The notes beneath the pieces were generated by a model. The model saw only the letters and a list, made by a program, of their open reading frames with translations. It was not told where the DNA came from and made no database searches. Shown here piece by piece: positions 10,849-61,216 of a DNA stretch of 64,000 bases. The DNA comes from Sphaerisporangium corydalis (lineage in GTDB: Bacteria; Actinomycetota; Actinomycetes; Streptosporangiales; Streptosporangiaceae): NCBI RefSeq assembly GCF_025506355.1, contig NZ_JANZYP010000028.1, positions 1 to 64,000 of the forward strand. The letters run 5' to 3'. Every line of letters begins with the position of its first letter. The first letter of the stretch is position 1. The translations under genes were made by a program, and so were the position numbers.

Positions 10849-10854
10849 GAATCG

Positions 10855-43559: not shown

Positions 43560-45824
43560 ATGAGCCAGGCCACGGCGAGCCCGCCCCGAGCTCCCGAGGC
43601 GGGGAGGCCGCCACGCCCGGCCGCCGCCAAGGCCGCCCGGGGGCGGCGGTGGAGATGGCGGAAACGCACCCCGACGGTGATCCAGATGGAGGCGGTGGAG
43701 TGCGGCGCCGCCTCCTTGGCCATGATCCTCGGGTACTACGGGAAGTTCGTCCCGCTGGAGGAACTGCGGGCCGCCTGCGGGGTCTCCAGGGACGGCGCCA
43801 AGGCCTCCAGCGTCATCAACGCGGCGCGGCGCTACGGCCTGATCGCCCGGGGCTTCCAGATGGAGGCCCAGGACCTGCGGACCGCGGCCAAGCCGGTGAT
43901 CATCTTCTGGGCGTTCCAGCACTTCCTGGTCGTCGAGGGGGTGCGCACCCGGTTCGGCAAGGAGATGGTCGCGGTCAACGACCCGGCGAGCGGGCCGCGC
44001 CTGGTCGACTGGGAGGACTTCGACTCCGGCTTCACCGGCGTGGTGCTGACGTTCGAGCCGTCCCCGGACTTCCGCCCCGGCGGGCGGCCCACCCGGGTCG
44101 GGCAGGCCCTGCTGGCGCGGCGGATGCCGTCCGGCCGGGCGCTGCCGCTGGTCCTGCTGGCCAGCCTGCTGCTGGTGGTGCCCGGCATCATCGGGCCCGC
44201 GTTCAGCCGGGTGTACATCGACAGGATCCTGTCCGGCCGCGACCCCGGGTACCTGGTGCCGCTGCTGTTCGGCATGGGGCTGACGTCGGTCGCGGTGTTC
44301 GTCCTGACGTCGGTGCAACGGCACTACCTGCTGCGCCTGGAGATCCGGCTCGGCCTGGTCAGCTCGGCCCGCTTCTTCCGGCACCTGCTGCGGCTGCCCG
44401 TCGAGTTCTTTCTGCAACGCCGCCCCGCCGAGGTCGCCAAACGGGTGCAGGCCAACGACACCGTCGCCGAGATCCTGTCGCGCGACCTGGCGGTCACCGC
44501 CGTCAACCTGGTGCTGGTGCTGTTCTACGCGGCCATCCTCATCAGGTACGACCTGCTGCTCGGCCTGGTCGGGGTCGCCATGGCGCTGCTGAACATCCTG
44601 GTGCTGCGCCGGGTGTCCCGCAGCCGCACCGACGCGGTGGCCGCGCTCCGCGCCGACCTCGGCAACCTGACGTCCACCACCTTCAACACCCTGCAGCTCA
44701 TCGAGACCGTCAAGGCCTCGGGCGCCGAGCCGAACGCCTTCCAGCGCTGGGCCGGGTTCCTGGCCAAGGCGGTCACCGCCAAGCAGCGCCTCGGCGTCGC
44801 CACCGCCACGCTCACGGTGGTGCCGCCGCTGCTGGCCGGGGTCAACAGCGGGCTCATCCTGCTCATCGGCGGCCTGCGCGTGGTCGACGGGGTGATCAGC
44901 GTCGGCATGCTGGTGGCCTTCCAGACGCTGCTCAACGCCCTGTCGCGGCCGGTGACCCAGCTCACCAACCTGGGCGGGCAGCTCCAGGACATCTCCGCCG
45001 ACATCAACCGCCTGTACGACGTCGAGCGCTACCCGGTCGCGCACGTCTTCGAGCCCCGCCCGGCGCCGCCGGTGGACGTCCGCCTGGACGGCAGCCTGGA
45101 GTTCGACGACGTGTCCTTCGGCTACAACCCGATCGCGCCCCCGGTGATCAAGAACCTGTCGTTCTCGGTCGTGCCGGGACGCCGGGTGGCGATCGTCGGC
45201 AACTCCGGCAGCGGCAAGTCGACGGTCGGCAAGCTCGCCGCCGGCCTGTACGTGCCCGGGTCGGGCCAGGTCCTGCTGGACGGCCTCCCGAGGGAGGCGT
45301 ACTCCCGCACGGCCGTGGCGGTGTCGGTCGCCTACGTCGACCAGGACATCAGCCTGTTCGAGGGGACCGTGCGCGACAACCTGACGCTGTGGAGCGACGA
45401 CATCCCCGACGAGGTGGTGATCGCGGCACTGCGCGACGCGGCCATCTTCGACATGATCACCGCCCGGCCCGGCGGCCTGAACAGCAACGTCAGGGAGGGG
45501 GGCCGCAACTTCAGCGGCGGGCAGCGGCAGCGGCTGGAGCTGGCCAGGGCGCTGTCGGTCCAGCCCACCCTGCTGGTCCTCGACGAGGCGACCAGCGCCC
45601 TGGACTCGGAGACCGAACGGATCATCGCCGACAACCTGCGCCGCAGAGGATGCGGCTGCCTCATCATCGCGCACCGCCTGTCCACCATCCGCGACGCGGA
45701 CGAGATCCTCGTCCTGGACCAGGGTGAGGTGGTCGAACAGGGCCGCCACGAAGAGCTGGTCGCCAAGGGCGGGCACTACGCCCGGCTCATCGAGAACGCC
45801 CACAGAAACGGCGACGGGAGCTGA
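43560..45824 (+). CDS. NHLM-type ABC exporter with C39 leader peptidase
   Basis: 754 residues. The N-terminal 180 residues are a C39 peptidase: catalytic Cys in AVECGAASLAMIL near 45, His in FQHFLVVEG near 121, and Asp in VNDPASG near 140. Six membrane segments follow (about 200-450), then the ATPase with GNSGSGKST near 545, FSGGQRQR near 650 and LLVLDEATSALD near 668. It cuts the leader at a double-Gly-like site and exports the modified core. The peptidase catalytic residues are intact. Confidence 0.92.
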   Translation: MSQATASPPRAPEAGRPPRPAAAKAARGRRWRWRKRTPTVIQMEAVECGAASLAMILGYYGKFVPLEELRAACGVSRDGAKASSVINAARRYGLIARGFQMEAQDLRTAAKPVIIFWAFQHFLVVEGVRTRFGKEMVAVNDPASGPRLVDWEDFDSGFTGVVLTFEPSPDFRPGGRPTRVGQALLARRMPSGRALPLVLLASLLLVVPGIIGPAFSRVYIDRILSGRDPGYLVPLLFGMGLTSVAVFVLTSVQRHYLLRLEIRLGLVSSARFFRHLLRLPVEFFLQRRPAEVAKRVQANDTVAEILSRDLAVTAVNLVLVLFYAAILIRYDLLLGLVGVAMALLNILVLRRVSRSRTDAVAALRADLGNLTSTTFNTLQLIETVKASGAEPNAFQRWAGFLAKAVTAKQRLGVATATLTVVPPLLAGVNSGLILLIGGLRVVDGVISVGMLVAFQTLLNALSRPVTQLTNLGGQLQDISADINRLYDVERYPVAHVFEPRPAPPVDVRLDGSLEFDDVSFGYNPIAPPVIKNLSFSVVPGRRVAIVGNSGSGKSTVGKLAAGLYVPGSGQVLLDGLPREAYSRTAVAVSVAYVDQDISLFEGTVRDNLTLWSDDIPDEVVIAALRDAAIFDMITARPGGLNSNVREGGRNFSGGQRQRLELARALSVQPTLLVLDEATSALDSETERIIADNLRRRGCGCLIIAHRLSTIRDADEILVLDQGEVVEQGRHEELVAKGGHYARLIENAHRNGDGS

Positions 45825-45826
45825 CC

Positions 45827-48751
45827 GTGACGGGATTCGTCCCCTTCTTCGCCGAGGCCGCGACCCCGGTGGACTACTCGGCCGACCGCATGCACGTCCT
45901 GTCCGACCTGCGGGAGGTGCTCCTGGTCGAGGAGGGGGCGGTCGACCTCTTCGCGGTACGGCTGGAGGACGGCCTGCCCGTGGGGCGGTGGAACTACCTG
46001 TGCCGGGTCCGCCAGGGGGCGCTGCTGCTCGGCTCGCCCAAGGGCCCCCGGCACAGCATCGTGGGCCGCCCCATCCCGGGCACCCGCGTGTCCCGGATGC
46101 CGCTCGGCCGGTTGCGCGCCCTGTCGGCCACCGGCCGCTCGGGGACCATGGCCACCGGCGAGTACGGCGTGGCCGTCCAGCAGTTCGTCCGCGGGCTTGA
46201 GGCCGGCATCGTCTCGCTGGCCCAGGCCATGCGCAACGGCCTGCCCCCGCGCGAGTTCGTCCCGCTGTCCACCGGCAGGTCCACCGAGCTGGCCGACGGC
46301 GAGGCGGCGCGGTCGGTGGACGGCATCTGCTGGCTCACCGTCGAGGACGGCGCGATCGAGATGCCCGAAGGCGTCGCCGGGCGGCTCACCGCCGGCGCCG
46401 AGGTCTGCGTGACCGAACGCGACTGGGTGGTGGCCACCGGCCAGACCCGGCTCGCCGCCAAGACGACGTGGGAGCTGCTGGCCGACGAGACGATCTGGGC
46501 CAGGTGGGTGGAGTACGCGACCCGCTTCCTCTACACCGTGGACCGCCGCGTCGAACGGCACGGCCTGCGCGAGGTGGAGATGCTGACCCGCCGGGGCGAG
46601 CGGGAGGCGGGCGCCATGCGGACCGCGCGCCAGGGGTTCGACACCCTCGTGCGCGACACCGAGGCCCGGGTGCGGCTGGCCGACGTCACCACCGACTCGC
46701 CCGCGCTGGCCGCCGCCCGGCTGGTGGCCTCGCACGGCGGGTTCCGCGTCACCGCGCCGCCGCCCGGCGGCACGCACGGCAGGCACGTCGATCCCCTGCA
46801 GGCGATCGCGCTGGTCTCGGGGGTGCGCACCCGGACGGTGCGGCTGGACGAGGGATGGTGGAAGAAGGACCTCGGGCCCATGGTGGGCTTCCGGGCGGCC
46901 GACGACGTCCCCGTGGCGCTGCTGCCGATCGGCACCCACTACGTGGTCGCGCAACCGGGGCAGACCCGGGTCACCCCCGTCACCGCGGCGGTCGCGGCGA
47001 CGCTGTCCAACCGGGCCGAGGTGCTGTACCAGCCGCTGCCGCGCGAGGTGCGCACGGTGGCCGGGCTGCTGCGGTTCGGGCTGGCGCGCAACCGCCGCGA
47101 CTTCTGGGTGCTGGCGTCCCTCGGCACCCTGGTCGCGATCATCGGCCTGCTGGTGCCGGCCATGACCGGCATGGTCCTCGGCACGTTCGTCGCGCGCGCC
47201 CAGCACGACCTCATCGTGGAGGGGGCGCTGCTGGTCATCGGCGGGGCGCTGGTGGCGGGCGCGCTGTCGATCGTGCAGAACGTCGCCGCGCTGCGCATCG
47301 AGGGCCGGTCGTCGTCCCGGTTACAGGCCGGCGCCTGGACCCGGCTGCTGTCGCTGCCCGCCACGTTCTTCGCCCGGTACTCCACCGGCGAGCTGGGCAC
47401 CACCGTGCTCGGGGTCAGCGCGGCCCAGGAGATGCTGTCCGGCGTCATGACGACCGCGACGCTCGGGCTGTTCGCCGGGCTGGCCAACCTGGTGCTCGTC
47501 TACTTCTACGACAGCAGGCTCGCCCTGATCGCCACCCTGCTGGTGCTGGTCAGCGTGTTCGTGTGCGGGCTCGCCGGGTACTTCGAGGTCCGCCTGCAAC
47601 GCCGGCTGTACGAGCAGGAGCAGAAGCTGTCCTCGCGGGTGTTCCAGCTCCTGACGGCCGTGCCGAAGCTGCGGGTGGCCGCCGCCGAGGACCAGGCGTT
47701 CAGCGTGTGGACGCGGGACTTCCTGCAGACGCGCAGCACCTCCGCCTCGGCGCGGCGGCTGCAGAACCTGGTCACGACGTTCAACGCCGGCTACCCGCTG
47801 GTGTGCTCGGTCCTCATCTTCGCGATCGCGGGCGGGCCGTTGCGCGGCCAGCTTCCCATCGCCGCGTTCCTGGCGTTCTTCGCCGCGTTCAACCTGCTCA
47901 TCGCCTCGGTGCTGCAGTTCACCGGCTCGGCGATCACCGCGATGAGCATCGTGCCGATGCTGGAGAAGCTGGCCCCGATCCTGTCGGCCGAGCCGGAGGA
48001 GCAGACGGGCAAGGCCGACCCCGGCGACCTGTCGGGCCGCATCGCCATCTCCCGGGTGTCGTTCAGGTACGGCGACGACGGCCCGCTCGTGCTGAGCGAC
48101 ATCGACCTGTCGGTGGACCCCGGCGAGTTCGTCGCGATCGTGGGCCCCACCGGCAGCGGCAAGTCCACGATCCTGCGCCTGCTGCTCGGCTTCGAGGAAC
48201 CGGTCGCGGGCACCGTCCTGTACGACGGCCAGGACCTGACCGAGCTGGACATCGGCGCGGTCAGGCGGCAGTGCGGCGTCGTCCTGCAGAACGGCGCGCT
48301 GCTCGCCGGGGACATCCGGCAGAACATCATCGGCAGCACCAACCATTCGGTCGACGACGCCTGGGAGGCCGCCTCGATGGCCGGCATGGCCGAGGACATC
48401 TCGGCCATGCCGATGGGCATGAACACGGTCCTGTCGGAGGGCGTCAACACCCTGTCGGGCGGCCAGCGGCAACGGATCATGATCGCGCGGGCCCTGGTCT
48501 CCCGGCCCCGCATCGTCTTCTTCGACGAGGCCACCAGCGCCCTGGACAACCCCACGCAGAACGCCGTCGCGGAGAGCACCCGCCAGCTCAACGCCACCCG
48601 CATCGTGATCGCCCACCGGCTGTCCACGATCAGGGCGGCCGACAAGATCGTGGTGATGGACGGCGGGCGGATCGTCCAGCAGGGCCAGTACGACGAGCTG
48701 GTCTCCGACACCGGCGGGCTGTTCGCCCGCCTGGCCAGCCGGCAGATGTGA
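45827..48751 (+). CDS. NHLM-type ABC exporter without peptidase
   Basis: 974 residues. The first 400 residues are a soluble N-terminal extension typical of the second NHLM transporter, with no C39 active site visible. Then six membrane segments (about 430-700), Walker A GPTGSGKST near 775, LSGGQRQRIM near 880 and IVFFDEATSALD near 900. It starts 2 bases after the previous exporter gene. In NHLM clusters the two ABC proteins are thought to work as a pair. GTG start. Confidence 0.9.
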   Translation: MTGFVPFFAEAATPVDYSADRMHVLSDLREVLLVEEGAVDLFAVRLEDGLPVGRWNYLCRVRQGALLLGSPKGPRHSIVGRPIPGTRVSRMPLGRLRALSATGRSGTMATGEYGVAVQQFVRGLEAGIVSLAQAMRNGLPPREFVPLSTGRSTELADGEAARSVDGICWLTVEDGAIEMPEGVAGRLTAGAEVCVTERDWVVATGQTRLAAKTTWELLADETIWARWVEYATRFLYTVDRRVERHGLREVEMLTRRGEREAGAMRTARQGFDTLVRDTEARVRLADVTTDSPALAAARLVASHGGFRVTAPPPGGTHGRHVDPLQAIALVSGVRTRTVRLDEGWWKKDLGPMVGFRAADDVPVALLPIGTHYVVAQPGQTRVTPVTAAVAATLSNRAEVLYQPLPREVRTVAGLLRFGLARNRRDFWVLASLGTLVAIIGLLVPAMTGMVLGTFVARAQHDLIVEGALLVIGGALVAGALSIVQNVAALRIEGRSSSRLQAGAWTRLLSLPATFFARYSTGELGTTVLGVSAAQEMLSGVMTTATLGLFAGLANLVLVYFYDSRLALIATLLVLVSVFVCGLAGYFEVRLQRRLYEQEQKLSSRVFQLLTAVPKLRVAAAEDQAFSVWTRDFLQTRSTSASARRLQNLVTTFNAGYPLVCSVLIFAIAGGPLRGQLPIAAFLAFFAAFNLLIASVLQFTGSAITAMSIVPMLEKLAPILSAEPEEQTGKADPGDLSGRIAISRVSFRYGDDGPLVLSDIDLSVDPGEFVAIVGPTGSGKSTILRLLLGFEEPVAGTVLYDGQDLTELDIGAVRRQCGVVLQNGALLAGDIRQNIIGSTNHSVDDAWEAASMAGMAEDISAMPMGMNTVLSEGVNTLSGGQRQRIMIARALVSRPRIVFFDEATSALDNPTQNAVAESTRQLNATRIVIAHRLSTIRAADKIVVMDGGRIVQQGQYDELVSDTGGLFARLASRQM

Positions 48752-48778
48752 CCGCGTGACCGAGCCGAGGACGTGACC

Positions 48779-49099
48779 ATGGAATTCGCACTGCTGATCC
48801 ACGGAGCCGAGAGCGCGTGGGCCGAGATGGCCGGCGACGAACGGCAGGACTACTTCGCCGCCCACCGCGCGTTCGGCGCGGGCCTGCGCGAGTCGGGCGT
48901 GCGGGTGGTCTACGGCTGCCGCCTGGCCCGCCCCGAGTCGGTCGCGGACGCCAAGCCGCGCGACGACGGCGAGCCCGAACTGGGCGGGATGTGGATCCTG
49001 GACGTGCCCTCCGAGGACGAGGCCGTCGCATGGGCGGAACGCCTCCCCTTGAAACCGGGGGACGTGGTTGAGTTGCGTCTCTGCGAGCATGGAGGATGA
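48779..49099 (+). CDS. YCII-domain protein
   Basis: 106 residues. The YCII/DGPF pattern is present: EFALLIHGAESAWAEM, AHRAFGAGLRESGVRVVYG, GMWILDVPSEDEAVAWAERLPL, with a conserved His at HRAF. YCII proteins are dimeric alpha+beta barrels with mostly unknown roles. It is 27 bases after the exporter gene and is followed by a second YCII gene, so both belong to the RiPP operon. Their function there is unknown. Confidence 0.82.
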   Translation: MEFALLIHGAESAWAEMAGDERQDYFAAHRAFGAGLRESGVRVVYGCRLARPESVADAKPRDDGEPELGGMWILDVPSEDEAVAWAERLPLKPGDVVELRLCEHGG

Positions 49100-49663: not shown

Positions 49664-49849
49664 CTAGTAGCGCGGCCTCCTGCTGAGCACGACACCCACC
49701 CCCAGGAAGATGATCCCGGCGGCGCCGTAGATGACGGCCAGCGACGTCGTGGGCGGCTTCTGGCTCGCGTTCATGACCGCCAGCGCCAGGCCGACGATCC
49801 CACTGATGTAAGCGAAGATCGCAACGAAGATCTTCCAGAACGGGCTCAT
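49664..49849 (-). CDS. Small two-span membrane protein in the P450 operon
   Basis: 61 residues: FWKIFVAIFAYISGIVGLALAVM, a short loop, then SLAVIYGAAGIIFLGVGVVL and RRPRY. I do not recognise the family. The ATG overlaps the methyltransferase stop by 4 bases and has GGAGGAAGAG before it, so it is a real gene of the P450-methyltransferase operon. It could anchor the tailoring enzymes or act in self-protection; no evidence decides. Confidence 0.7.
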   Translation of the reverse strand: MSPFWKIFVAIFAYISGIVGLALAVMNASQKPPTTSLAVIYGAAGIIFLGVGVVLSRRPRY

Positions 49850-50694
49850 CTCTTCCTCCATGTGGTTCCGGCCGGACCGCCCGGTGCGGTGCCGGCCACG
49901 ACGAAGCCGAGCAGCATGACCCACGCGTCCGGGTCGGACCTGAACCGCTTCCAGCGGTCGGCCGCCAAGGCGAGCTGGGCCATCGACAGAGCGCCCGACG
50001 CCACCAGCGGGACCAGCCGTTCCGGCCCCATGTGCGGCGCGAAGGCCTCCGTCGGGTGGTCGTCGTTGGTGGTGGCGAACGGGCGCAGCGCCACGTCGGC
50101 GAAGCCGGCCCCGCGCAGCAGCCGGGTCAGCTTCCGCCCGATCTGGCGGTCGCCCCCGGCGCCGCGCTGGGCGCCCGCCATCGTGGCGTGCACCGACGCC
50201 AGCTCGGGGTACATGGGGTCGGCGAGCCCCCACAGCATGCTGTCGACCTCGACCACGATCAGCAGCCCGCCCGGCCGCAGCACGCGCAGCGCCTCGGCCA
50301 GCACCGGCGCCGGGTCGGCCACGTGCTGCAGTACGTATCGCAGCAGCACCCCGCCGACGCTTCCCGTGCGCAGGGGCAGCCCCCGGCCGTCGGCCGCCAG
50401 GCGGGGCACCCCGGGGCAGGCGGCGTGCGCGAGCACGGTCTCGTCGATGTCGGCCGCCACGATGGGCAGGTCGGGCTCGGCGGCGCGCAGCCGGCGGGTG
50501 ACCGCCCCTGACCCGGCGCCCAGCTCCAGCAGCGGGCCCGCGCCGCGCAGGCCGAGCTCGCGCATGATGCGCAGTTCCTCGTCGAAGGACAGCTCGGCCT
50601 GGGCCTCCAGGCGGGCCAGCTCGCCGCGCAGCCCGCCTGAGGTGGTGTTGGCCGCGTCGTAGGAACCGGCCCGGTGGACCGTGGGGGCGCTCAT
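49846..50694 (-). CDS. SAM-dependent methyltransferase
   Basis: 282 residues. Class I methyltransferase: LLELGAGSGAVTRRL near 55, IVAADIDETVL near 77, ADGRGLPLRTGSVGGVLL near 100, then VLRPGGLLIVVEVDS near 140. The C-terminal region is of its own type. It overlaps the P450 gene and the small membrane protein gene by 4 bases each. In the cluster it may methylate a group made by one of the oxygenases; O-, N- or C-methylation cannot be told. Confidence 0.88.
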   Translation of the reverse strand: MSAPTVHRAGSYDAANTTSGGLRGELARLEAQAELSFDEELRIMRELGLRGAGPLLELGAGSGAVTRRLRAAEPDLPIVAADIDETVLAHAACPGVPRLAADGRGLPLRTGSVGGVLLRYVLQHVADPAPVLAEALRVLRPGGLLIVVEVDSMLWGLADPMYPELASVHATMAGAQRGAGGDRQIGRKLTRLLRGAGFADVALRPFATTNDDHPTEAFAPHMGPERLVPLVASGALSMAQLALAADRWKRFRSDPDAWVMLLGFVVAGTAPGGPAGTTWRKR

Positions 50695-52025
50695 CGGGAC
50701 CTCGGGATCATCATCATGCCGTGCTTGGGCCGCAGGGTGACCAGGGCCTCGGTCTCGACGGGGAAGCCCTCGACCAGCTCAAGGCGCAGCCGCCGCAGGA
50801 TCACGGCGAGCACGAGGGTGGCCTCGGCCATCGCGAAGTGCTGCCCGACGCAGACGCGCGGCCCGCCGCCGAAGGGGAGGTACTGGTGGCTGAGGTGCAG
50901 CGCCACCCGTTCGGGCGCGAACCGGTCAGGCCGGTACGCGTCGGCGTCCTGCCAGTACCTCGGGTCGCGGTGCAGCACCCACGGGCTGACGCAGACCAGG
51001 GTGCCGGCCGGCACGTCGTAGCCGCCGATGACGTCGTCCTCGACCGAGCGCCGCGAGATGAGCCAGACGGGCGGGTAGAGCCGCATCGCCTCCTGGATCG
51101 CCTGGCGGCAGGCCACCAGCCTCGGCAGGTCGGCGGCGACCGGCGTACGGTCGCCGAGCACGTCGTCCACCTCCGCGTACGCGTCCCGCGCCATCTCCGG
51201 GTGCCGGTCGAGCAGGTACAGCGTCCAGGTGAGCGCCTTGGCCGTGGTCTCGTGCCCGGCCATGATGATCGTCAGTACCTGGTCGCGCAGGTCGGTGTCG
51301 GACATGTGGTGCCCGGAGGCGAGCATCGAGGTGAGCAGGTCGTGCCCGTCGCCGCCGCCCGCGCGGCGGGCCGCGATGATCAGGCGGGTCACCTGGTCGA
51401 GGAACCCGCGCGCCCGGTGGAAACCCGCGAAGCGTACGGAGGTGTCGGCGGGGTCGGGGTCGTCGTTCGGTACGTAGTGGCCGATGAAGCGGTTGACCGC
51501 GTCCACCGCGCGCCCGAACCCATCGCCGATGCCGCCGATGTCGGTGCCGAGCATGGCGCGCACGATGACGGTCAGCGTGAGCGCGGTCAGGTCGTGATCG
51601 ACGCGTACGGGCTGCCCGTACGGGGTCTCGGCCCAGCGGCGCGCCAGGTTCCCGGCCGCGCCGGTGATGACCTCGTCGAACTTCTCCACCTCGCTGGGCC
51701 GGAAGGCCGGCGCGCACATCTTGCGCTGCGCGGCCCATTCCTTCCCGCTGCTGGTCAGCAGCCCGTTGCCGAGCAGCGGCCGGAGCATGTCGTCGTCGGG
51801 GGTGCCGTCCTTGGTGTAGTTGGCCCCGTTCTCCTTGAGTACGTACCTGGCGAGGTCGGGCCGGTTGAGCATGTACACCGGCCCGCCGTCGGCGTCGTGC
51901 CGTGTGACGTCGCCGTAGGCCGCCATCGCGGTGACGAAGTCGAGGGGAGCGTCGCGCATCGTGCGCAGGCTCTGGGTGCCGCCGGGTCCCGGAGGAAGGC
52001 GGGGAGATACGTACGTCCCGGACAT
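50691..52025 (-). CDS. Cytochrome P450
   Basis: 444 residues, canonical P450: I-helix MAGHETTAK near 255, ExxR in EAMRLYP near 312, haem loop FGGGPRVCVGQH near 390 with the Cys ligand. It resembles the CYP102/CYP110-like bacterial group by length and motif. ATG at 52025 follows GGGAGAG. It starts an operon with a methyltransferase and a small membrane protein and is divergent from the precursor gene. Confidence 0.9.
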   Translation of the reverse strand: MSGTYVSPRLPPGPGGTQSLRTMRDAPLDFVTAMAAYGDVTRHDADGGPVYMLNRPDLARYVLKENGANYTKDGTPDDDMLRPLLGNGLLTSSGKEWAAQRKMCAPAFRPSEVEKFDEVITGAAGNLARRWAETPYGQPVRVDHDLTALTLTVIVRAMLGTDIGGIGDGFGRAVDAVNRFIGHYVPNDDPDPADTSVRFAGFHRARGFLDQVTRLIIAARRAGGGDGHDLLTSMLASGHHMSDTDLRDQVLTIIMAGHETTAKALTWTLYLLDRHPEMARDAYAEVDDVLGDRTPVAADLPRLVACRQAIQEAMRLYPPVWLISRRSVEDDVIGGYDVPAGTLVCVSPWVLHRDPRYWQDADAYRPDRFAPERVALHLSHQYLPFGGGPRVCVGQHFAMAEATLVLAVILRRLRLELVEGFPVETEALVTLRPKHGMMMIPRSR

Positions 52026-52061
52026 CGGCTCTCCCAATCACTTACGTCGGCATTCATTTTG

Positions 52062-52069: not shown

Positions 52070-52265
52070 TATGCGAATGCTTTGATACGTACTCGTGAAG
52101 CGTATTCTTCACGGGGGTGCATTTACAGCGTACCCCCTCGCACAAGGCCCCTCAATACTTATATTCTGGCCCCGGAAATTTAAGTCTGGGCACCCTGAAT
52201 TTCGCATGCGAGACTTCATTCCAGACGGCGAGTCGCGCCGCAGCGAAAAGCTCCAGGAGGACACA

Positions 52266-52640
52266 ATGGCCCTGAACCCCCAAGAGCGGACCGAATTCGT
52301 CAACGCCTACACCCGCGTGCTCATCACCGCCTGGTCGAGCGAGGAGTTCTCCACCAAGCTCGACACAAACCCGCGTGAGGCGCTCGCCGAGGCCGGTCTC
52401 GAACTGCCCGCAGGCGCGCAGGTCACCCTCGTCCGCAACGTGCCCGAAGGCCACCACGACAGCAACCTCGACGTCCAGGTCGCCCTGTGGGAGCGGGGTC
52501 TGGAGAGCGGCGTCTTCGAGTTCCACGTCCCGGAGACCCCGCAGATCGACCTGGCCGAGCTGAGCGAGGGCGACCTCGACTCGATCGCCGCGGGCGTCGA
52601 CATCAACTGCTGCTGCTGCCCCTGCTGCTGCTGCACCTGA
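52266..52640 (+). CDS. RiPP precursor with NHLP leader and poly-Cys core
   Basis: 124 residues. The first 110 are a nitrile-hydratase-like leader (NHLP): NPREALAEAGLELPAGAQV and VTLVRNVPEGHHDSN near 35-65, then LAELSEGDLDSIAAG. The core that follows is VDINCCCCPCCCCT: eight Cys in two blocks of four around a Pro, ending in Thr. The likely cleavage is after AAG at residue 110, the double-Gly-like site for the C39 exporter. The start has CCAGGAGGACACA. It stands apart from the modification operon but is divergent from the P450 operon and shares the AATACGTA motif. Cys blocks of this type are the natural substrate of the YcaO/SagB pair. Confidence 0.9.
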   Translation: MALNPQERTEFVNAYTRVLITAWSSEEFSTKLDTNPREALAEAGLELPAGAQVTLVRNVPEGHHDSNLDVQVALWERGLESGVFEFHVPETPQIDLAELSEGDLDSIAAGVDINCCCCPCCCCT

Positions 52641-52728: not shown

Positions 52729-53676
52729 ATGGCCGCGGTCGTCGACACGGCGAACCCGATTCACGTGCGTGGGCTACGTAAGCGGTACGGAAACGCGAGC
52801 GTCGTCCAGGACGTGGATCTGGAGGTCCATCCCGGCGAGGTCTTCGCCCTGCTCGGGCCGAACGGCGCGGGCAAGACGACCACCGTGGAGATCCTCGAAG
52901 GGGTTCGCCGTCGCACCGGTGGCGACGTGAGCGTACTCGGCCGGGACCCGGCCGAGGACGCCCCCGAGTGGCGCGCGCGGCTCGGCATCGTGCCGCAGAC
53001 CACCGGCGCCTACTCCGACCTCACGGTCCGTGAGGTCATCGAGCACTTCGCGGCGTTCTACCCGGCGCCGCTCCCGGTCGAGCAGGCCATGGAGATGGTC
53101 GGGCTCCGCAAGCAGGAGCGCAAGCAGGCGCACCAGCTCTCGGGCGGCCAGCTCCGCCGCCTGGACGTCGCGGTCGGGATCGTGGGGGACCCGGACCTGA
53201 TCTTCCTGGACGAGCCGACCACGGGCCTGGACCCGGCGGCCCGGCTCGAAGCGTGGGAGCTGGTGCGGTACTTCGCCGACCGGGGCAAGACGACCCTGCT
53301 GACCACGCACTACCTCGACGAGGTGGAGGCGCTGGCCCAGCGGGCGGCCGTCATCGTCGCGGGCAAGGTCGTGGAGGTCGGCACCGTCGCCGAGCTCGGC
53401 GGCCGTCGCGACACCCCGGCCGTGGTGAGCTTCACCCGCGTCGGCCGGATGGCGGGCCTCACCCTGCCGCTGCTGCCACCGGACGCTTTGGTCGACCCGT
53501 CCGACGACGAGGTCGTCACCCTGCACACCCACAGCCCGACCCAGGCGCTCGCGGCGATCCTCCCGTGGGCCGCCGAGGCGGGCGTCCACGAGCTGCCGGA
53601 CCTGCGGGTCCAGCGCCCCACGCTCGAAGACGTGTACCTCAAGCTCATCAGCGAGAACCAGGGGGCCGACTCATGA
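52729..53676 (+). CDS. ABC exporter ATPase in the RiPP cluster
   Basis: 315 residues. Walker A LGPNGAGKTTT near 45, signature LSGGQLRRLD near 135, Walker B LIFLDEPTTGLDP near 160, H-loop TTHYLDEVE near 190. The type is DrrA/CcmA-like with a C-terminal extension. Its stop overlaps the permease gene by 4 bases. With the permease it forms a pump separate from the NHLM pair, perhaps for self-protection or export of the mature product. Confidence 0.9.
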   Translation: MAAVVDTANPIHVRGLRKRYGNASVVQDVDLEVHPGEVFALLGPNGAGKTTTVEILEGVRRRTGGDVSVLGRDPAEDAPEWRARLGIVPQTTGAYSDLTVREVIEHFAAFYPAPLPVEQAMEMVGLRKQERKQAHQLSGGQLRRLDVAVGIVGDPDLIFLDEPTTGLDPAARLEAWELVRYFADRGKTTLLTTHYLDEVEALAQRAAVIVAGKVVEVGTVAELGGRRDTPAVVSFTRVGRMAGLTLPLLPPDALVDPSDDEVVTLHTHSPTQALAAILPWAAEAGVHELPDLRVQRPTLEDVYLKLISENQGADS

Positions 53677-54533
53677 CAACTCCCGACGCGGCGGTGGCCC
53701 GCAAGGGCCCGGCGGCGCGGACCGCGACCGGACGTGGCTCGGGCCTGTGGCGGGCGTCGATGGCCCGGTCGTCGGTGGAGCTGAAGTCGTTCTTCCGCAA
53801 CAAGCAGTCGCTGTTCTTCACGCTGCTGCTGCCGGTCGTCCTGCTGCTGGTGCTGGGCTCGATCTTCTCCGGCACCGTTCCGGGCACGCACACCGACTTC
53901 AAGCAGACGTTCGTGGCCGGGATCATCGCCTGCGGCATCATGAGCGTCAGCTTCAACGGCCTGGCGATCAACATCGCGATCGAGCGGGACACCGGCATGA
54001 TCCGCAGGCTGGCGTCCTCGCCGATGCCGAAGACCGCGTACTTCGTCGGCAAGATCGTCCGCGTGGTGGTGACCGGCATCCTGGAGGCGGTGATCCTGCT
54101 GGCGGTGGGGGTCTCGCTGTTCCACCTGCCGCTACCGGCGACCACCGAACACTGGGTCACCTTCCTGTGGGTGCTGCTGCTCGGCGCCATGGCCTGCTCG
54201 CTGCTGGCCGTCGCGTTCAGCTCGGTCATCCCGAACGCGAGGTCGGCCGCGGCGATCGTCACGCTGCCGTTCCTGGTGCTCCAGTTCATCTCGGGGGTGT
54301 TCTTCCCCTACAGCCAGCTCCCCGCGTGGATGCAGACGATCGCGGCGTTCTTCCCGCTGAAGTGGATGACGCAGGGTCTGCGGTCGGTGTTCCTGCCGGC
54401 CGACTTCGCCGTGGTGGAACCGGCCGGCACCTGGGAGCTGGGCCGCACCGCGGCCGTGCTCGGCGCCTGGTGCGTGGCCTCGCTGCTGCTGACGCTGCTG
54501 AGCTTCAGGTGGCGCGGCGCCAACGTCAAGTGA
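53673..54533 (+). CDS. ABC-2 type permease in the RiPP cluster
   Basis: 286 residues with six membrane segments (about 45-65, 85-105, 130-155, 163-185, 195-215, 255-275) and the ABC-2 layout ending in a helix. It pairs with the preceding ATPase. The ATG overlaps its stop by 4 bases. Confidence 0.88.
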   Translation: MTTPDAAVARKGPAARTATGRGSGLWRASMARSSVELKSFFRNKQSLFFTLLLPVVLLLVLGSIFSGTVPGTHTDFKQTFVAGIIACGIMSVSFNGLAINIAIERDTGMIRRLASSPMPKTAYFVGKIVRVVVTGILEAVILLAVGVSLFHLPLPATTEHWVTFLWVLLLGAMACSLLAVAFSSVIPNARSAAAIVTLPFLVLQFISGVFFPYSQLPAWMQTIAAFFPLKWMTQGLRSVFLPADFAVVEPAGTWELGRTAAVLGAWCVASLLLTLLSFRWRGANVK

Positions 54534-54543: not shown

Positions 54544-54566
54544 GTGGCAGGCCGGGGGGCCTGTCA
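54544..54566. terminator. Bidirectional terminator over the P450 stop codon
   Basis: GTGGCAGGCC at 54544-54553 pairs with GGCCTGTCAC at 54557-54566, with one wobble. It contains the stop codon (54564-54566) of the convergent second P450 gene. Confidence 0.65.
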
Positions 54567-55754
54567 CAGGGCGAGGGTGAAGCCGTCGAGCCGCCGGGGC
54601 ACGAGCGACGGAGCCCAGACGGGCGGGGACCCCGTGGCGCGCAGCCCGGGGTACCGGCTCAGCAGGTCGTGCAGCAGGAGTGCCCCGGCATGCCTGACCA
54701 GAGGAGCACCCAGGCAGAAATGGGTGCCGCCGCCGAAGGCGAGGTGCGGATTGGGCGAGCGGGTCACCACCAGGTCGTCCGGCCGGTCGAAGACCGCCGG
54801 ATCCCGGTTCGCCGCGGCGATCAGCGCGAGCACCCGGGCCCCGGACGGGATCGTCCCGCCGTCCAGCGGCACGGCCTCGGTGGTCACGCGGGCGATGAAC
54901 GGGATCGGTGCCTCCACGCGCAGCAGCTCGTCGACGGCCGTCCCCGCCGCCTCCTCGCCGCCCTCGCGCAGCCGCGCCGCCTCCTCGGGGCGCGGCAGCA
55001 GCCAGTACAGCGCGTTGCCGACCATCTCGGCCAGCGGCTTCCAGCCGCCGACGATGGCCAGGGACGCGACGCCGAGCATCTCGGGCCGGGTGAGCCGGTC
55101 GTCGGCCGCGAGCCTGCCGAACGGCGAGGTCCGCCCGTCCTCGTCCCGCCCGCCCAGGGCCCGGTCGGCGTGCGCGCCGAGGAAACGGGTGAGCTCCCCC
55201 ATCGCGGCCCGGCCCGCCGCGGCCTCCTTGGGGCCCGCCAGCGGGTCCAGGTTGACCGAGGTGCGCGCGGCCAGCCCGGCGAACTCCGTACGTGCGGCGG
55301 CCGGCAGCCCGAAGAGCCTGGCCAGCACGCCGGTCGCGACCGGTTCGCCGATGTCGGCCGTGACCTCGACCTCCGTGCGTCCGGCCAGCCCTGCCATGAC
55401 CTCGTCGACCTCGCGGGCGATGCCGGCGGCGATGCCGCGGATGGCGGCCGGGCCGAGCAGCAGCGCGCCCGGCGAGCGGAGCCGCTGGTGCTCGGGCGGG
55501 TCGGTGGTGAGCATCGACGGCGGCAGGGCGTCCTCCCTGACCCGCTCACGCTGGCCGAGTGCCGCGGAGAAGCGCGGGTCACGCAGCGCCAGCGCGCAGT
55601 CGGCGTGTCCGGTCAGCAGCCACATGCGGGAGGTCACGTCGAAGTGCACCGGGTCGTTGGCCCGCAGCCAGCGGTACGCCGGGTACGGATCGGCCCGGCC
55701 GCGTGGCGAGAACGGGTGGGCCAGATCGGCGGGAAGCCCGCGGGATGCCTTCAT
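54564..55754 (-). CDS. Atypical cytochrome P450 without the I-helix acid-alcohol pair
   Basis: 396 residues. ExxR in ELLRVEAP and the haem loop FGGGTHFCLGAPLVRH are present, with the Cys ligand. In the I-helix, where bacterial P450s have AGxE/DT, this protein has IVGGWKPLAEM: Gly-Trp-Lys-Pro. The acid and alcohol that deliver protons to haem-bound oxygen are missing. Such losses are known in P450s that use a substrate group for proton delivery or run peroxide or ring-coupling chemistry. ATG at 55754 has GGAGG upstream. Confidence 0.85.
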   Translation of the reverse strand: MKASRGLPADLAHPFSPRGRADPYPAYRWLRANDPVHFDVTSRMWLLTGHADCALALRDPRFSAALGQRERVREDALPPSMLTTDPPEHQRLRSPGALLLGPAAIRGIAAGIAREVDEVMAGLAGRTEVEVTADIGEPVATGVLARLFGLPAAARTEFAGLAARTSVNLDPLAGPKEAAAGRAAMGELTRFLGAHADRALGGRDEDGRTSPFGRLAADDRLTRPEMLGVASLAIVGGWKPLAEMVGNALYWLLPRPEEAARLREGGEEAAGTAVDELLRVEAPIPFIARVTTEAVPLDGGTIPSGARVLALIAAANRDPAVFDRPDDLVVTRSPNPHLAFGGGTHFCLGAPLVRHAGALLLHDLLSRYPGLRATGSPPVWAPSLVPRRLDGFTLAL

Positions 55755-55832
55755 CACGTGTCCTCCTGATCAAGCATCACGCGTCCTCATGATCAAGCCG
55801 AGCAACAAGCTACTACAAGGGGGTGGAAAGCG

Positions 55833-57047
55833 GTGCAGTTCGATGTGGTCGTGATCGGAGCCGGAGTCAGCGGCCTCACCGCGGCCGGGCGCCTGCGCGA
55901 CGCGGGCCTCGCGGTGACCGTCCTTGAGGCCAGGGACCGGATCGGCGGCCGGATCCTCACCCATCGGCCCTCTCTGCTCGAACTCGGCGCGCAGGTCGTC
56001 CACGGGGACCGCAACCCCATCTGGACGCTCCCCGGGCAGGAACGCCTGGTGCCGATGCCCCGGCGGCCCGCCCACGTCTTGCTCGGCGGGGAGCTGCGCC
56101 CGATGGCCGCCCTGTCCGAGGGCGGACCGCCGCCCCCGGTGCTGGAGGAACGGCTGCTGGCCCGCGCGGCCGAGGACGTACCGGTCGCGCAGTGGCTCAA
56201 GCTCCAGGCCCCGGTGAGCCCGACGGTCGCCGAGGCGACCGCGGAGTGGTTCCGGCAGAACTGGGCCGCCGATCCTGACGTGCTCAGCGCCCTCGGCCTG
56301 GCCGCCGGGCGGCGGGCCGACCGCGCGGGCCGGGGCGAGTTCACCGTGCCCGGCGGGTTCGACCGCCTGCCCGCCCGGCTCGCCACGGGCCTGGACGTGC
56401 GCACCGGCAGCGCGGCCCTGCGGATCGCGTGGACGCCCGGCCGGGTGGACGTCACCACCCCCGGCGGCGTCACGACCGCGGGCGCCGCCGTCGTCACCGT
56501 CCCTCCCCCGCTGGTCACCGGTGGCGGGCTCGTCATCGACGCCCTGCCCGTGCGCAAGCAGGCCGCCGCGTACGAACTGCGGCTCGGCGACGGGTGGTGC
56601 GGCGTGGTCACCTACCCGGGCCCGGCCCCGGAGTCGAGTGTGGTCTTCGACGCCGGCGGGCGGCTCGGGTTCGTCAGCGCCACGGCGGGCCGCCCCGAGG
56701 TGCTCATCGTGGCCAAGGACCGCGCGGCCCACGCGGCCCGCGTGGCGGCGCGCTCGCCGGGCGGCGTGGCGGCCTCGCTGCGCGAGGCGATGCCGTGGAC
56801 CCGCTCGGTGGAACCCATCTCGGTCGAGGTGGCCGACTGGGGCGCCGACGAGTGGGCCGGCGGCGCGTACACGTACCCGGCCGTGGGCGCCCTGTGGGCG
56901 TCGGCGGCCTGGGCCGAACCGATGGGCGGCACGCTCTTCTTCGCCGGGGAGGCCACCGTCGGCCGCTCCGGCCCGCCCATGGTGCACATGGCGATGGCCA
57001 GCGGCGAGCGCGCGGCCAGAGAAGTGATGGGGGCGCTGAAGAGATGA
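55833..57047 (+). CDS. FAD-dependent amine oxidase-type oxidoreductase
   Basis: 404 residues. The N-terminal FAD motif [22 protein letters not shown] with [14 protein letters not shown], and a C-terminal motif [15 protein letters not shown], place it in the flavin amine oxidase/protoporphyrinogen oxidase family. It could oxidise an amine, amino acid side chain or ring. GTG start. It overlaps the Rieske gene by 4 bases, so it is first in a tailoring operon of four genes. Confidence 0.86.
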
Positions 57048-57931
57048 CATCTCATGGCGGATGGTTCCTGCTCGCGCTGGAGGAGGAGCTCACCGAGGAG
57101 CTCACACCGCTCAGCGCCTGCGGCCGCAGCCTGATCGCGGTCAGGGACGGCGACCGGATCCGGGTCTTCGACGGCGCCTGCCCGCACCGGGGCGCCCACC
57201 TCGGGTACGGCGGCAAGCTGGACGGCGGCTGCGTGACCTGCCCCTTCCACGGCAAGCGGATCTCCCTGGGCGACACCGGCCGCCGCTGGTCGGTGGCCGA
57301 ACTGCCCACGGAACGGGCGGGCGCCGCCCTGTTCGCCCGGCTGTCGGACGGTCCGGGCGACGACCGTGGCTTCCAGCAGGTGATCAAACAGGTGGCCGCC
57401 GACCTGGTGGTCGTCGGCGCGGTGATCCAGCCGGTCGCGGTGCCCGCCGAGTACGTCGTGGAGAACGCCTTCGACGCCGAGCACTTCCGCACGGTCCACC
57501 TGGTGCCCTCGGTCCGCGGCATGCGGGCGACCCTCGGGGAGCACGGCGAGCTCGTCATCGCCGGCGAGTTCCGCACCAAGGCGCCCCCCTGGGAGAAGGA
57601 GCGCCGGCTGGACTTCGCGTCCCGGTTCGTGGCCCGCGCCTTCAGCCCGCACCTGGTGGTCACCGAGCTGGGTGACGGCGAGGCGCCGTACACGATCATC
57701 ACCGGGGCGGTCCCCGACGGGAAGGGCTGCGTGGGACGGGTCGCGATCGGGGTCCGCCCCGGCCAGACCGGCTCGCTGCCCGCCCTCATCCACGGCGCCA
57801 AGTACGCGTTCGACCAGGACCGGGTCGTCTGGGACCACCTGGACGTGAACGCGCCCCAGCGGTTCGACGCCGGTGACGCGCCCGTCATCGCCTTCCGCCA
57901 GTTCTGCGCGAGTTTCGGAGCGCCGTCATGA
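57044..57931 (+). CDS. Rieske non-haem iron oxygenase
   Basis: 295 residues. Rieske ligands are complete: CPHRGAH near 45 and CPFHGKRI near 67, binding a [2Fe-2S] cluster. The C-terminal part has [17 protein letters not shown] near 147, a probable mononuclear iron site with Asp and His. This is the ring-hydroxylating/KshA-like oxygenase type. Substrate unknown; in the RiPP cluster it may hydroxylate a side chain or ring. It overlaps the amine oxidase and hydrolase genes by 4 bases each. Confidence 0.88.
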
Positions 57932-58737
57932 ACCTGTTCACGCGCACGCACGGCGACGGCCCCGCCGTCCTGTGGATCCACGGCTACACGATGGACTCGT
58001 CGGTGTGGAAGGAGCTGTGGACGCTGCTGCCCGGCTGGCGGCACGTCGGCGTCGACCTGCCCGGTCACGGCCGGTCCGGCCCGCTGCCGCCCGGCACGTC
58101 CCTGAGCGCGGTCGGCGCCGAGCTGGCCGCGCTGGCCAGGGCCGAGTCCGCGCGGCTGGTCGTGGCCGAGTCCATCGGGTCGATGATCGCCCTGCAGATG
58201 GCCATCGGCGACCCCGAGGCGATCCGCGGCCTGATCATCGGCTCGCCCACCATCGCGGGCGCGCCCGCCGAGCCCGGGACCGGCGACCGCTACCGGGCGC
58301 TCGCGGCGCTCGCGCGGTTCGGCGCCTCAGGCGAGCAGCTCGCCGACCTGTGGATGAGCTCGCCGCCGGACATCTTCCGCGGCACCGAGCGGCACCCCGC
58401 CCTGCGTGCCCGGCTCCGCTCCGTCGTGGCCAGGCACGCGTGGAAGGAGCTGAGCGACGGCGCGATGTACGGCCTCAGCAGGCACGTCCACACCGCGCAG
58501 GACCTCGGCGGCATCCGCGCGGCGACGCTGGTCGTGGTCGGCGACGAGGACATGCCGACGTTCCGGACGAGCGCCGAGCTGCTGCGCGCGACCGTCCCCC
58601 GGTGCCGGACGCTGACCGTGCCCGCCGCCGGGCACCTGTGCCTGATCGAGCGGCCCGAGACGGTCGCGTCCGCCGTCGGCGACCACCTGCTGCTGGCCGA
58701 GAGGGAGGGACTCCGTGCCGATTCACCGGTCCTATGA
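57928..58737 (+). CDS. Alpha/beta hydrolase
   Basis: 269 residues. HGYTMDSS oxyanion region near 25, the nucleophile motif VAESIGSMIAL near 90 (G-x-S is altered to E-S-I-G), Asp in VVGDEDMPTF near 210 and His in PAAGHLCLIE near 237. The elbow reads A-E-S-I-G, so the residue before Ser is Glu; the Ser itself is kept. Probably an esterase, lactonase or C-C hydrolase. The gene overlaps the Rieske gene by 4 bases and the VOC gene by 23. Confidence 0.86.
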   Translation: MNLFTRTHGDGPAVLWIHGYTMDSSVWKELWTLLPGWRHVGVDLPGHGRSGPLPPGTSLSAVGAELAALARAESARLVVAESIGSMIALQMAIGDPEAIRGLIIGSPTIAGAPAEPGTGDRYRALAALARFGASGEQLADLWMSSPPDIFRGTERHPALRARLRSVVARHAWKELSDGAMYGLSRHVHTAQDLGGIRAATLVVVGDEDMPTFRTSAELLRATVPRCRTLTVPAAGHLCLIERPETVASAVGDHLLLAEREGLRADSPVL

Positions 58738-59380
58738 GCCCGGCGCGCCGTGCTGGGTGGACTACGCGGCGCTCGACCCCGAGGGCGCCAAGGCGTTCTA
58801 CGGGGAGCTGTTCGGGTGGGAGTTCGAGGAGGCCGGCGGGTACGGGTTCGTCCGCCTGGACGGGCAGGTCGTCGGGGGGTTCGGCCGGGTGGCCCCCGGC
58901 ATGGGGCTGCCCGCGTCCTGGAACACCTACCTGGCCACCAAGGACGCCGACGCCGGCGCCGTCCGGGTCAAGGAGCTCGGCGGCTCGGTGGTCTTCGGCC
59001 CGATCGACGCGGGCCACGACGGGCGGCTGCTGTTCGCGGTGGACCCCGGCGGCGCGGCCGTCGGGCTGTGGCAGGGCCACTGGGCGGACGGGATCGTGGT
59101 GGTGGACGAGCCGGGGACGTGGTGCCGCAACGAGCTGTGGGCCCGGGACGGGGCCGGCGCCTTCTACGATGGCGTGTTCGGCGCGACCGGGGTCGCCACG
59201 GCCGTACGGGCGCCGATGGCCGGTACGGCGGCGCGATGGGTGACGTACTTCATGACCGGCGACGGCCCGGCCGCACTCGCCACGGCCGAGCGCCTCGGGG
59301 CCACGATCGCCGCTCGGCACGGCCGGGCGACGATCCTTTACGACCCGTGGGGCGCCCTCTTCGCGCTGACGCCCCGATGA
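58715..59380 (+). CDS. VOC family (glyoxalase/bleomycin-resistance fold) protein
   Basis: 221 residues, two VOC modules: residues 10-115 (CWVDYAALDPEGAKAFYGELFGWEF, WNTYLATKDADAGAVRV) and 125-215 (WCRNELWARDGAGAFYDGVFG). The fold binds metal or metabolites; roles include dioxygenase, isomerase and drug-binding protein. In an antibiotic cluster it could bind the product for self-resistance. GTG start, 23-base overlap with the hydrolase gene. The stop is at the start of three 18-base repeats. Confidence 0.85.
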   Translation: MPIHRSYEPGAPCWVDYAALDPEGAKAFYGELFGWEFEEAGGYGFVRLDGQVVGGFGRVAPGMGLPASWNTYLATKDADAGAVRVKELGGSVVFGPIDAGHDGRLLFAVDPGGAAVGLWQGHWADGIVVVDEPGTWCRNELWARDGAGAFYDGVFGATGVATAVRAPMAGTAARWVTYFMTGDGPAALATAERLGATIAARHGRATILYDPWGALFALTPR

Positions 59381-59782: not shown

Positions 59783-61216
59783 ATGGCGAAGAAAGTCTTG
59801 GTTATCGGAGGCGGCCCCGCCGGCTCGATCACGGCGGCGCTTCTCGCGCGGCGGGGGGTGGACGTCCGCCTTTTGGAACGCGAGATATTTCCCCGATACC
59901 ACATCGGTGAGTCGGTCTCCCCATCGTGCCGGGCGATCATCGACTACGCCGGCGCGCACGACAAGATCGAGGCCCGCGGCTACACGGTGAAGGAGGGCAT
60001 CCTGCTGCGCTGGGGCACCGAACGCGACTGGACCATCGACTGGGCCAAGACGTTCGGGCCGAAGGTCCGCTCCTGGCAGGTGGACCGCGCCGACTTCGAC
60101 AAGGTGCTGCTCGACCACGCCGCCGAGCAGGGCGCCGAGGTCATCGAGGGCGCCCAGGTCAAGCGCGTCCACTTCGACGAGGGACGGGCGCACGCCGCCG
60201 ACTGGACCTACCGGGGCACCACCGCCACCGAGGACTTCGACTTCCTGGTCGACGCCTCCGGCCGCGCGGGCGTGCTGTCGGTCCGGCACCTCCACGACCG
60301 CAGGCCGCACGACATCTTCCGCAACGTGGCCATCTGGGGCTACTACCAGGGCGGCGCCCTGCTGCCGGACACCCCCGGCGGCGGGATCAACGTGATCTCC
60401 TCGCCCGAGGGCTGGTACTGGGTCATCCCGCTGCGTGACGACGTCTACAGCGTCGGGTTCGTCACCCACCAGACCCGGTTCCTTGAGCGCAGGGGCGCCT
60501 TCGGCTCGGCCGAGGAGATGTTCCGCGCCCTGGTCGCCGAGTCGCCCACCGTCGCCGAACTGGTCGCCACCGGCACCCCCGACGGCCCCGTCCGCGTCGA
60601 GCAGGACTTCTCCTACGTCGCCGACACCTTCTGCGGCCCGGGGTACTTCACCGCCGGGGACGCCGCCTGCTTCCTCGACCCGCTGCTGTCCACGGGCGTC
60701 CACCTGGCCATGTACAGCGGCCTGCTCGCCGCCGCCTCCATCACCGCCACGGTGGACGGCGACGTCGGCGAGCTGGAGGCGCGCGGCTTCTACGAGTCGC
60801 TCTACCGCAACTCCTACGCCCGGCTGCTGGCCATGGTCTCCGCCGTCTACCGGCAGTACCGGGGCAGGGCCAGCTACTTCTGGCTCGCGCAGCGCCTGCT
60901 CAGGACCGAGCCCGCGCGGCGGCACGGCAACGCGTTCGCCTCCATCACCGCCGGCCTGTCGGACCTGTCGGACGCGAGCACGTCCGGCGGCACCGCGCCC
61001 ATGCACGAACTGGTCGCCGCCGCGCACACCGCCGAACTGCGCGCGGCCGGGAACGTCCCGTCCGAGGGGAGCACGCAGGCGCCGATGAAGATGGACGCCA
61101 ACGACCTGTACGACGCCGCCACCGGCCTGTACCTGGTCACCGACCCCGTCCTCGGCATCCGCAGGGCCAGGACCGCCGCCGCGCCCGCCGCCACCGGCCT
61201 GACCTTCACCCGGTGA
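59783..61216 (+). CDS. Flavin-dependent halogenase
   Basis: 477 residues. FAD site GGGPAGSITAALLARRG near 9; the halogenase motif WxWxIP is present as EGWYWVIPLRDD near 212; FTAGDAACFLDPLLSTGVHLAMYSG near 290 resembles the carrier-bound and small-molecule halogenases (CndH/CmlS type). These enzymes make HOCl from FADH2, O2 and chloride. The substrate may be a ring or side chain of the peptide. It stands alone with its own promoter. Its stop is duplicated downstream. Confidence 0.88.
   Translation: MAKKVLVIGGGPAGSITAALLARRGVDVRLLEREIFPRYHIGESVSPSCRAIIDYAGAHDKIEARGYTVKEGILLRWGTERDWTIDWAKTFGPKVRSWQVDRADFDKVLLDHAAEQGAEVIEGAQVKRVHFDEGRAHAADWTYRGTTATEDFDFLVDASGRAGVLSVRHLHDRRPHDIFRNVAIWGYYQGGALLPDTPGGGINVISSPEGWYWVIPLRDDVYSVGFVTHQTRFLERRGAFGSAEEMFRALVAESPTVAELVATGTPDGPVRVEQDFSYVADTFCGPGYFTAGDAACFLDPLLSTGVHLAMYSGLLAAASITATVDGDVGELEARGFYESLYRNSYARLLAMVSAVYRQYRGRASYFWLAQRLLRTEPARRHGNAFASITAGLSDLSDASTSGGTAPMHELVAAAHTAELRAAGNVPSEGSTQAPMKMDANDLYDAATGLYLVTDPVLGIRRARTAAAPAATGLTFTR

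Follow-up and report, generated by a model that had tools for sequence, protein, structure and literature searches.

We studied a gene for a peptide precursor in 64,000 nucleotides of Sphaerisporangium corydalis DNA (the whole stretch analysed, hereafter the window) and found that it belongs to a conserved gene cluster. The comparison of sequences makes it highly probable that the Cys residues of the precursor core, CCCCPCCCC, are turned into two thiazole blocks joined at the Pro by an E1-YcaO cyclodehydratase and a SagB-type dehydrogenase, with a C39 peptidase likely cutting after Ala-Ala-Gly. The precursor gene and its parts are as follows:

52266..52640, + strand: precursor peptide gene; NHLP-type leader, residues 1-110, and core VDINCCCCPCCCCT, residues 111-124
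52560..52577, + strand: L(X)4L motif LSEGDL at residues 99-104, through which the leader is proposed to dock on the RRE domain of the cyclodehydratase, by analogy with MprE7/MprC
52596..52637, + strand: core VDINCCCCPCCCCT, from translation of the ORF

The ORF at 52266-52640 (+) runs from an ATG to a TGA and encodes 124 residues with the C-terminal sequence IAAGVDINCCCCPCCCCT, ending in AAG-VDINCCCCPCCCCT; coordinates and translation agreed exactly with an earlier note on this DNA, which had described a 124-residue ORF with a CCCCPCCCC core. An AGGAGG sequence is located at 52255-52260, five bases from the ATG. The ORF list also offered a longer form with a GTG start at 52095, and we adopted the shorter one because nearly all of the 26 aligned precursor relatives share its start position. 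The core DNA, (TGC)4 CCC (TGC)4, has the look of a microsatellite, and its eight Cys codons, all TGC in two pure runs, could be taken for a repeat artefact or a decayed gene with no product. This is almost certainly wrong and, as far as sequence allows, refuted: TGC is the sole Cys codon in eight other cluster genes (31/31), the core pattern is retained in all 149 listed family members that reach the core, and dN/dS (NG86) of the window precursor was below 1 against six of six relatives (0.14, 0.21, 0.13, 0.25, 0.34 and 0.64, the last being unreliable because its dS falls below that of nearer relatives). Over the 26 loci, the core Cys codons were TGC 189 times and TGT once.

The database search for NHLP precursors with such cores, which the earlier note had proposed as a check, revealed a family. 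From 120 of 221 and 120 of 322 matches listed, plus 10 more, we obtained 150 distinct members including the window precursor; cores were counted in 149 of them, since P0074 stops before the core. With the Pro located by demanding Cys, Ser or Thr on both sides, which biases the counts slightly toward the motif, both the Pro and a Cys at position +1 were present in 149 of the 149 listed precursors, and positions -3 to -1 and +1 to +3 held 813 Cys, 61 Ser, 20 Thr and no other residue (894 in all). Position +4 showed 125 Cys, 15 Ser/Thr, 7 Gly and 2 Ala in the same 149, the Gly and Ala being confined to the more distant member set; in the first 119 members all seven positions from -3 to +4 were Cys, Ser or Thr (747, 66 and 20 of 833). 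Thr occupied position +5 in 117 of the 149 listed, and Tyr, Ala or Val position -4 in 32. The exact core occurred in 48/149 listed members, including the Nonomuraea and Microbispora loci; most Streptomyces loci and the Streptosporangium locus presented YCCCPC[CS]CC, and Kitasatospora and three Streptomyces loci SCCCPC[CS]CC. A core of the CCCCPCCCC type is a signature of the family and not unique to the window strain. Nakamurella aerolata has, adjoining its first precursor, a second and divergent one (L026, ~10550-10951; core region YCCSCCPSCCSASGSG) with Ser at +1 and a longer tail; the second precursors of Streptomyces CG 926 and of one MAG retain CCCPC[CS]CC. Ring number would therefore vary, given Gly or Ala at +4 in 9/149 listed members and Ser at +1 in the second Nakamurella precursor. 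With Tyr, Ala or Val at -4 in some members, most of the family can share no more than seven ring sites, one fewer than the "up to eight" thiazoles of the earlier note.

In a single scan of the GTDB species genomes we obtained 40 matching stretches, of which 25 loci were confirmed, in Nonomuraea, Microbispora, Streptomyces, Kitasatospora, Yinghuangia, Streptosporangium, Nakamurella, Planobispora and two MAGs; named actinobacterial genera with the cluster number at least eight. Gene content was based on tblastn searches with the window proteins around the precursor and the YcaO at 40% identity or more, and by these counts SagB, HlyD, C39-ABC, ABC2 and alpha/beta-hydrolase genes were each found in 25/25. 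The E1-YcaO was present in all 25 other genomes (56-81% identical), on the same contig as the precursor and 10.2-22.2 kb from it in 24 of them; in Streptomyces DI166 the two are on separate contigs. Distances computed from the alignments of six partners correlate with those of the precursor (r 0.81-0.92, 0/999 permutations), a result confounded by species descent that fits co-inheritance of the precursor and its partners. In the family of the window strain, 15 of 297 sampled genomes matched the precursor profile (window genome included), and none of ten listed genomes of the same genus did, so the cluster appears patchy, as specialised-metabolite clusters are. One of the 15 (G206) holds a different peptide: its weak match (L092, ~9677-10033) has a Cys-free core that ends NVNVNVYAIFAA, and was rejected. 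Next to this NHLP-like precursor of L092 are a weak match to YcaO proteins and an exporter of the C39-ABC type.

The two enzymes proposed to form the rings are encoded side by side, and confirm the E1-like/YcaO fusion and SagB dehydrogenase that the earlier note had reported in the window:

39043..41322, + strand: E1-YcaO fusion cyclodehydratase of the LynD/TruD type; TIGR03604 and TIGR03882 above cut-off; LynD 3e-180; 25/25 genomes
41339..42703, + strand: SagB-type FMN thiazoline dehydrogenase, CyaGox-like; TIGR03605 above cut-off; Lys-Tyr pair present

Residues 6-757 of the 759 of the E1-YcaO aligned with LynD, and TruD aligned as well; the Glu pair within its LCEAIERY stretch, which we take to be the ATP/Mg ligands in LynD, was kept in 25/25. 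The closest relative of the SagB protein was CyaGox (7.8e-65). An E1-like plus YcaO cyclodehydratase together with a SagB-type dehydrogenase is what a cluster for a TOMM or linear azol(in)e peptide would have. Six of the same genomes carry more distant E1-YcaO genes as well, 37-43% identical, which form a second group (L061-L066); a simple filter for small Cys/Ser/Thr-rich ORFs returned no sister precursor at these six loci, which consequently give no core comparison.

Exchanges among Cys, Ser and Thr at the six core positions required at least 34 parsimony steps on a FastTree tree of the leaders, and Ser is only two of the seven amino-acid-changing, non-stop outcomes of single-base changes in TGC. 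Replacement of Cys by Ser and Thr only, the other residues that YcaO enzymes cyclise, is expected of a thiazole/oxazole scaffold and would not be predicted from use as thiolates or in disulfides. Eight Cys among nine residues would bind soft metals, and the product could be pictured as a metal-binding (metallothionein- or methanobactin-like) or disulfide peptide whose Cys stay thiols while the YcaO acts elsewhere or on few residues; we hold this to be very improbable, because so many steps would break thiolate sites or disulfide pairs, because E1-YcaO and SagB accompany the precursor in 25/25, and because none of the scanned cluster proteins was recognisable as a transporter or regulator for metals. 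In the azole peptide that we prefer, some core Cys may nonetheless remain thiazoline or free thiol.

The leader scored 43.8 bits against TIGR03793 (NHLP; cut-off 50.9), over residues 16-61 only, and 25.3 bits against TIGR04351 (cut-off 65); no Pfam match was obtained for the precursor at E <= 0.001. A profile of the 26 precursor relatives found nitrile hydratase alpha chain 1V29 as its best match (E 1.1e-6) and also the solved NHLP leader 8TB1 (E 7.1e-6). An AlphaFold model built from the same alignment was mainly helical (pLDDT 72.7, pTM 0.62; residues 102-124 below 50). Foldseek searched with this model gave nothing at E <= 0.001; its top rows were nitrile hydratases, and 8TB1 ranked 14 (prob 0.92, rmsd 2.5 over 50 columns). 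The profile scores below cut-off, taken with the likeness to nitrile hydratase and 8TB1 in both searches, indicate a divergent NHLP leader and bear out the nitrile-hydratase-like leader of the earlier description. The name NHLP leader peptide family is already given in public databases to some of the relatives (P0066, P0121, P0137), and many carry the PF27793 tag. The precursor at 52266-52640 was the sole TIGR03793 match in the window genome. As in NHLP systems, partner NHLM exporter genes are at hand (TIGR03796 and TIGR03797 above cut-off; a TIGR03794 match in the cluster below it, 143.1 vs 156.2). NHLP cores are described as hypervariable (Haft et al. 2010, PMC2887384) and follow Gly-Gly; here the core is conserved, and at all 25 loci the putative cleavage site of the precursor reads AAG instead of GG. 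Cox et al. 2015 (PMC4603692) state that their parameters did not pick up NHLP precursors. Conservation of a core in a group known for variable ones suggests a single defined target for the product.

Shortly before the putative cleavage site, the L(X)4L motif was found in 148/149 listed members (119/119 in the first set), as in the leader of MprE (PMC12455567). In the MprE7/MprC system, mutation showed that L(X)4L and the first NHLP helix matter for thiazoline/thiazole formation (PMC12455567); by analogy, we propose the motif as a candidate docking site for the RRE domain of the cyclodehydratase. This motif, the Ser/Thr-only replacement and the constant presence of E1-YcaO and SagB all speak for the polythiazole product that the earlier note had suggested.

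Around these genes lie those for export, possible self-protection and tailoring:

42710..43525, + strand: HlyD-type secretion adaptor of the NHLM exporter; 25/25 loci
43560..45824, + strand: C39 peptidase/ABC exporter, proposed to remove the leader and export the product; TIGR03796 above cut-off; 25/25 loci
45827..48751, + strand: second NHLM ABC exporter subunit (ABC2); TIGR03797 above cut-off; 25/25 loci
49846..50694, - strand: SAM methyltransferase; 24/25 loci
50691..52037, - strand: cytochrome P450 (a); canonical I-helix AGHET and haem Cys; 23/25 loci
52729..53676, + strand: DrrA-like ABC ATPase; TIGR01188 best, below cut-off; possible self-protection; 23/25 loci
53676..54533, + strand: DrrB-like ABC-2 permease; 23/25 loci
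54564..55757, - strand: cytochrome P450 (b); Gly-Gly-Trp-Lys-Pro-Leu replaces the I-helix acid/alcohol pair; 24/25 loci
55833..57047, + strand: FAD flavoprotein, amine-oxidase family; 24/25 loci
57044..57931, + strand: oxygenase-like protein of 295 aa with a Rieske [2Fe-2S] centre, start inferred; 24/25 loci
57928..58737, + strand: alpha/beta-hydrolase; 25/25 loci
58715..59380, + strand: glyoxalase-fold (KbpA-like) protein; 18/25 loci
59783..61216, + strand: flavin-dependent halogenase-like protein (CmlS/RadH-like); WxWxIP intact, kept 7/7; 7/25 loci

The C39 domain retains its Cys and His. The precursor is enclosed by a block of eight genes, which encode two P450s, a methyltransferase, a DrrAB-like transporter, an FAD amine-oxidase-like protein, a Rieske protein and an alpha/beta-hydrolase. 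The block was complete in 21/25 loci, from about -3.0 to +6.9 kb around the precursor, and identical in gene order in 21/25 across genera, with only the strand of P450b changing. Among the loci searched, four of its genes were missing in Planobispora, three in the MAG L023, two in Nakamurella and one in Streptomyces DI166. P450b keeps ExxR and the haem Cys, and in all 24 cluster orthologs GG[WYF]xPL replaces the acid-Thr pair that oxygen-activating P450s have in the I-helix. The residue x is Lys, Arg or Gln in 21/24, an arrangement that resembles the Arg-Pro of CYP152 peroxygenases/decarboxylases; six further alignment rows with AGNET were other P450s and were set aside. C-terminal decarboxylation by P450b is at this stage no more than a lead. 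Both ligand motifs of the Rieske protein are present in 24/24, and its relatives in the PDB are only weak. In strains with the halogenase-like gene (7/25 clusters) the product may be halogenated or hydroxylated.

Like the spread of the core through a family, this conserved tailoring block is a point that the earlier note missed. It could also belong to a separate neighbouring pathway, the end product then being a plain polythiazole peptide: no P450, Rieske protein or flavoprotein passes the cut-off of a peptide-modifying family, and P450a scores best in NCBIfam against terpene oxidases, at values far below their cut-offs. We consider this unlikely, since a weaker P450 row is the RiPP P450 ApyO (156 bits vs a cut-off of 525), the halogenase-like protein matched, below cut-off, the flavin monooxygenase QhpG (201 vs 240) and also a QhpG-type peptidyl tryptophan dihydroxylase, and the precursor has P450a on one side and the DrrAB-like genes on the other, and so sits within the block, in an unchanged order at 21/25 loci. 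Moreover, the YcaO/exporter block moves between loci (exporter genes upstream of the precursor in 9, downstream of it in 7, and beyond the 10-kb flank in the other 9), whereas the precursor stays in the tailoring block. With oxidative and methyl tailoring genes conserved around the precursor, a bare polythiazole is an unlikely end product, and a mass check on the core minus 20 Da per ring may therefore miss the compound; that mass rule, given in the earlier note, would suit an intermediate and probably not the final product.

The proposed pathway would start with the folded leader and L(X)4L docking on the E1/RRE part of the cyclodehydratase, after which the YcaO part would use ATP to close Cys, or the Ser/Thr that substitute for it, to azolines. 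SagB would then oxidise azolines to azoles, giving a tetrathiazole - Pro - tetrathiazole pair of rods in which the terminal Thr is possibly a methyloxazole. With the leader cut after AAG, the calculated [M+H]+ is 1482.414 for the linear core, 1322.204 for eight thiazoles and 1302.178 if the Thr methyloxazole is added. The two P450s, the Rieske protein, the FAD oxidase and the methyltransferase might decorate conserved parts such as ring edges, the Pro or the termini, and the alpha/beta-hydrolase might trim or hydrolyse. The C39-ABC/HlyD/ABC system would finally remove the leader and export the product, the DrrAB-like pump protecting the producer. The roles given to individual tailoring enzymes are guesses; since these enzymes are conserved and the residues that precede the Cys blocks are not, their targets are probably rings, Pro or termini.

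Most likely the product is a small toxic molecule, an antibiotic or cytotoxin, which is plausible because polyazole rods such as telomestatin and the bithiazole of bleomycin bind nucleic acid or metals. As a first guess at its target, by analogy with telomestatin, it may stack on nucleic acid. A bolder proposal, which we put forward as doubtful, is a new RiPP class made by many actinobacteria: two aromatic tetrathiazole rods with a Pro hinge, fixed by selection rather than diversified and hyper-oxidised, from which P450b would strip the C-terminal carboxylate and whose rod would bind folded nucleic acid or a soft metal. Such a product would have gone unseen because its mass differs from that of the core.

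The pathway is a conserved form of the NHLP (proteusin) azole peptides. In the portions of the sources that describe them, MprE/MprC/MprD, nostatin A and carnazolamide share with it a long NHLP leader and a YcaO plus dehydrogenase acting on Cys/Ser/Thr (PMC12455567, PMC11583998, PMC10676384). Unlike theirs, the window core is short, nearly all Cys and conserved, and a P450/Rieske/FAD block is found instead. The scanned cluster proteins of the window included no LanM-type dehydratase, radical SAM epimerase or S8 protease. We rejected the dehydrazole (carnazolamide) class, as no LanM-type domain lies beside the YcaO among the scanned proteins, and the lanthipeptides, as these proteins hold no lanthionine synthetase domain. 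The E1-YcaO is homologous to the cyanobactin heterocyclases LynD/TruD across nearly its whole length; no PatA/PatG-type protease domain was found among the scanned cluster proteins, and a cyanobactin was likewise rejected. Plantazolicin has two azole blocks split by Ile-Ile and differs from the window system in its mixed thiazole/oxazole rings, short leader, Bacillus origin, spacer and tailoring. It resembles our predicted product as a linear decacyclic thiazole/oxazole peptide (PMC4464531). Marthiapeptide A is likewise a polythiazole peptide of an actinomycete, but cyclic, as stated in part of PMC6213577. The telomestatin system of Streptomyces (tls) is described, in the sections of PMC5469769 concerned, as using a YcaO and a flavin oxidoreductase to convert a core CTTSSSSS to eight rings, azoles or azolines; it differs in its 42-aa precursor with no NHLP leader apparent in those sections, its macrocycle, its mostly oxazole rings and the lack of a Pro hinge. 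Since CTTSSSSS also has eight contiguous heterocyclizable residues, the "rare arrangement" of the earlier note has to be tempered, and with telomestatin, plantazolicin, nostatin A, carnazolamide and marthiapeptide A as precedents the novelty is limited. Among the matches listed in searches of open-access PubMed Central papers, there was no described product of, or paper with, the core CCCCPCCCC, in agreement with the earlier note; a report elsewhere is possible. What the cluster offers is an orphan pathway with one predictable scaffold in at least eight named actinobacterial genera, and the atypical P450b with the Rieske/FAD pair would be unusual tailoring among azole peptides.

Further genes in or near the cluster are these:

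35814..38696, - strand: LuxR-family (LAL-type) regulator, possible cluster regulator; 14/25 at >= 40% identity, 23/25 at >= 32%
48773..49099, + strand: YCII-domain protein; 9/25 loci at >= 40% identity
49139..49540, + strand: YCII-domain protein; 7/25 loci at >= 40% identity
49664..49849, - strand: small hydrophobic protein of 61 aa with an inferred start, its gene overlapping the stop codon of the methyltransferase; relatives in 23/25 loci, 47-79% identity

P450a and the DrrAB-like genes are likewise missing from the two loci that have no 61-aa protein. At 40% identity or more, tblastn found the gene at 61342-61911 in 3/25 loci and the AfsR-like gene at 61969 in 0/25. Upstream and outside the cluster, at 28817-31770 (-), a KaiC-domain ATPase (29893-31770) adjoins a PAS histidine kinase ORF (28817-30745).
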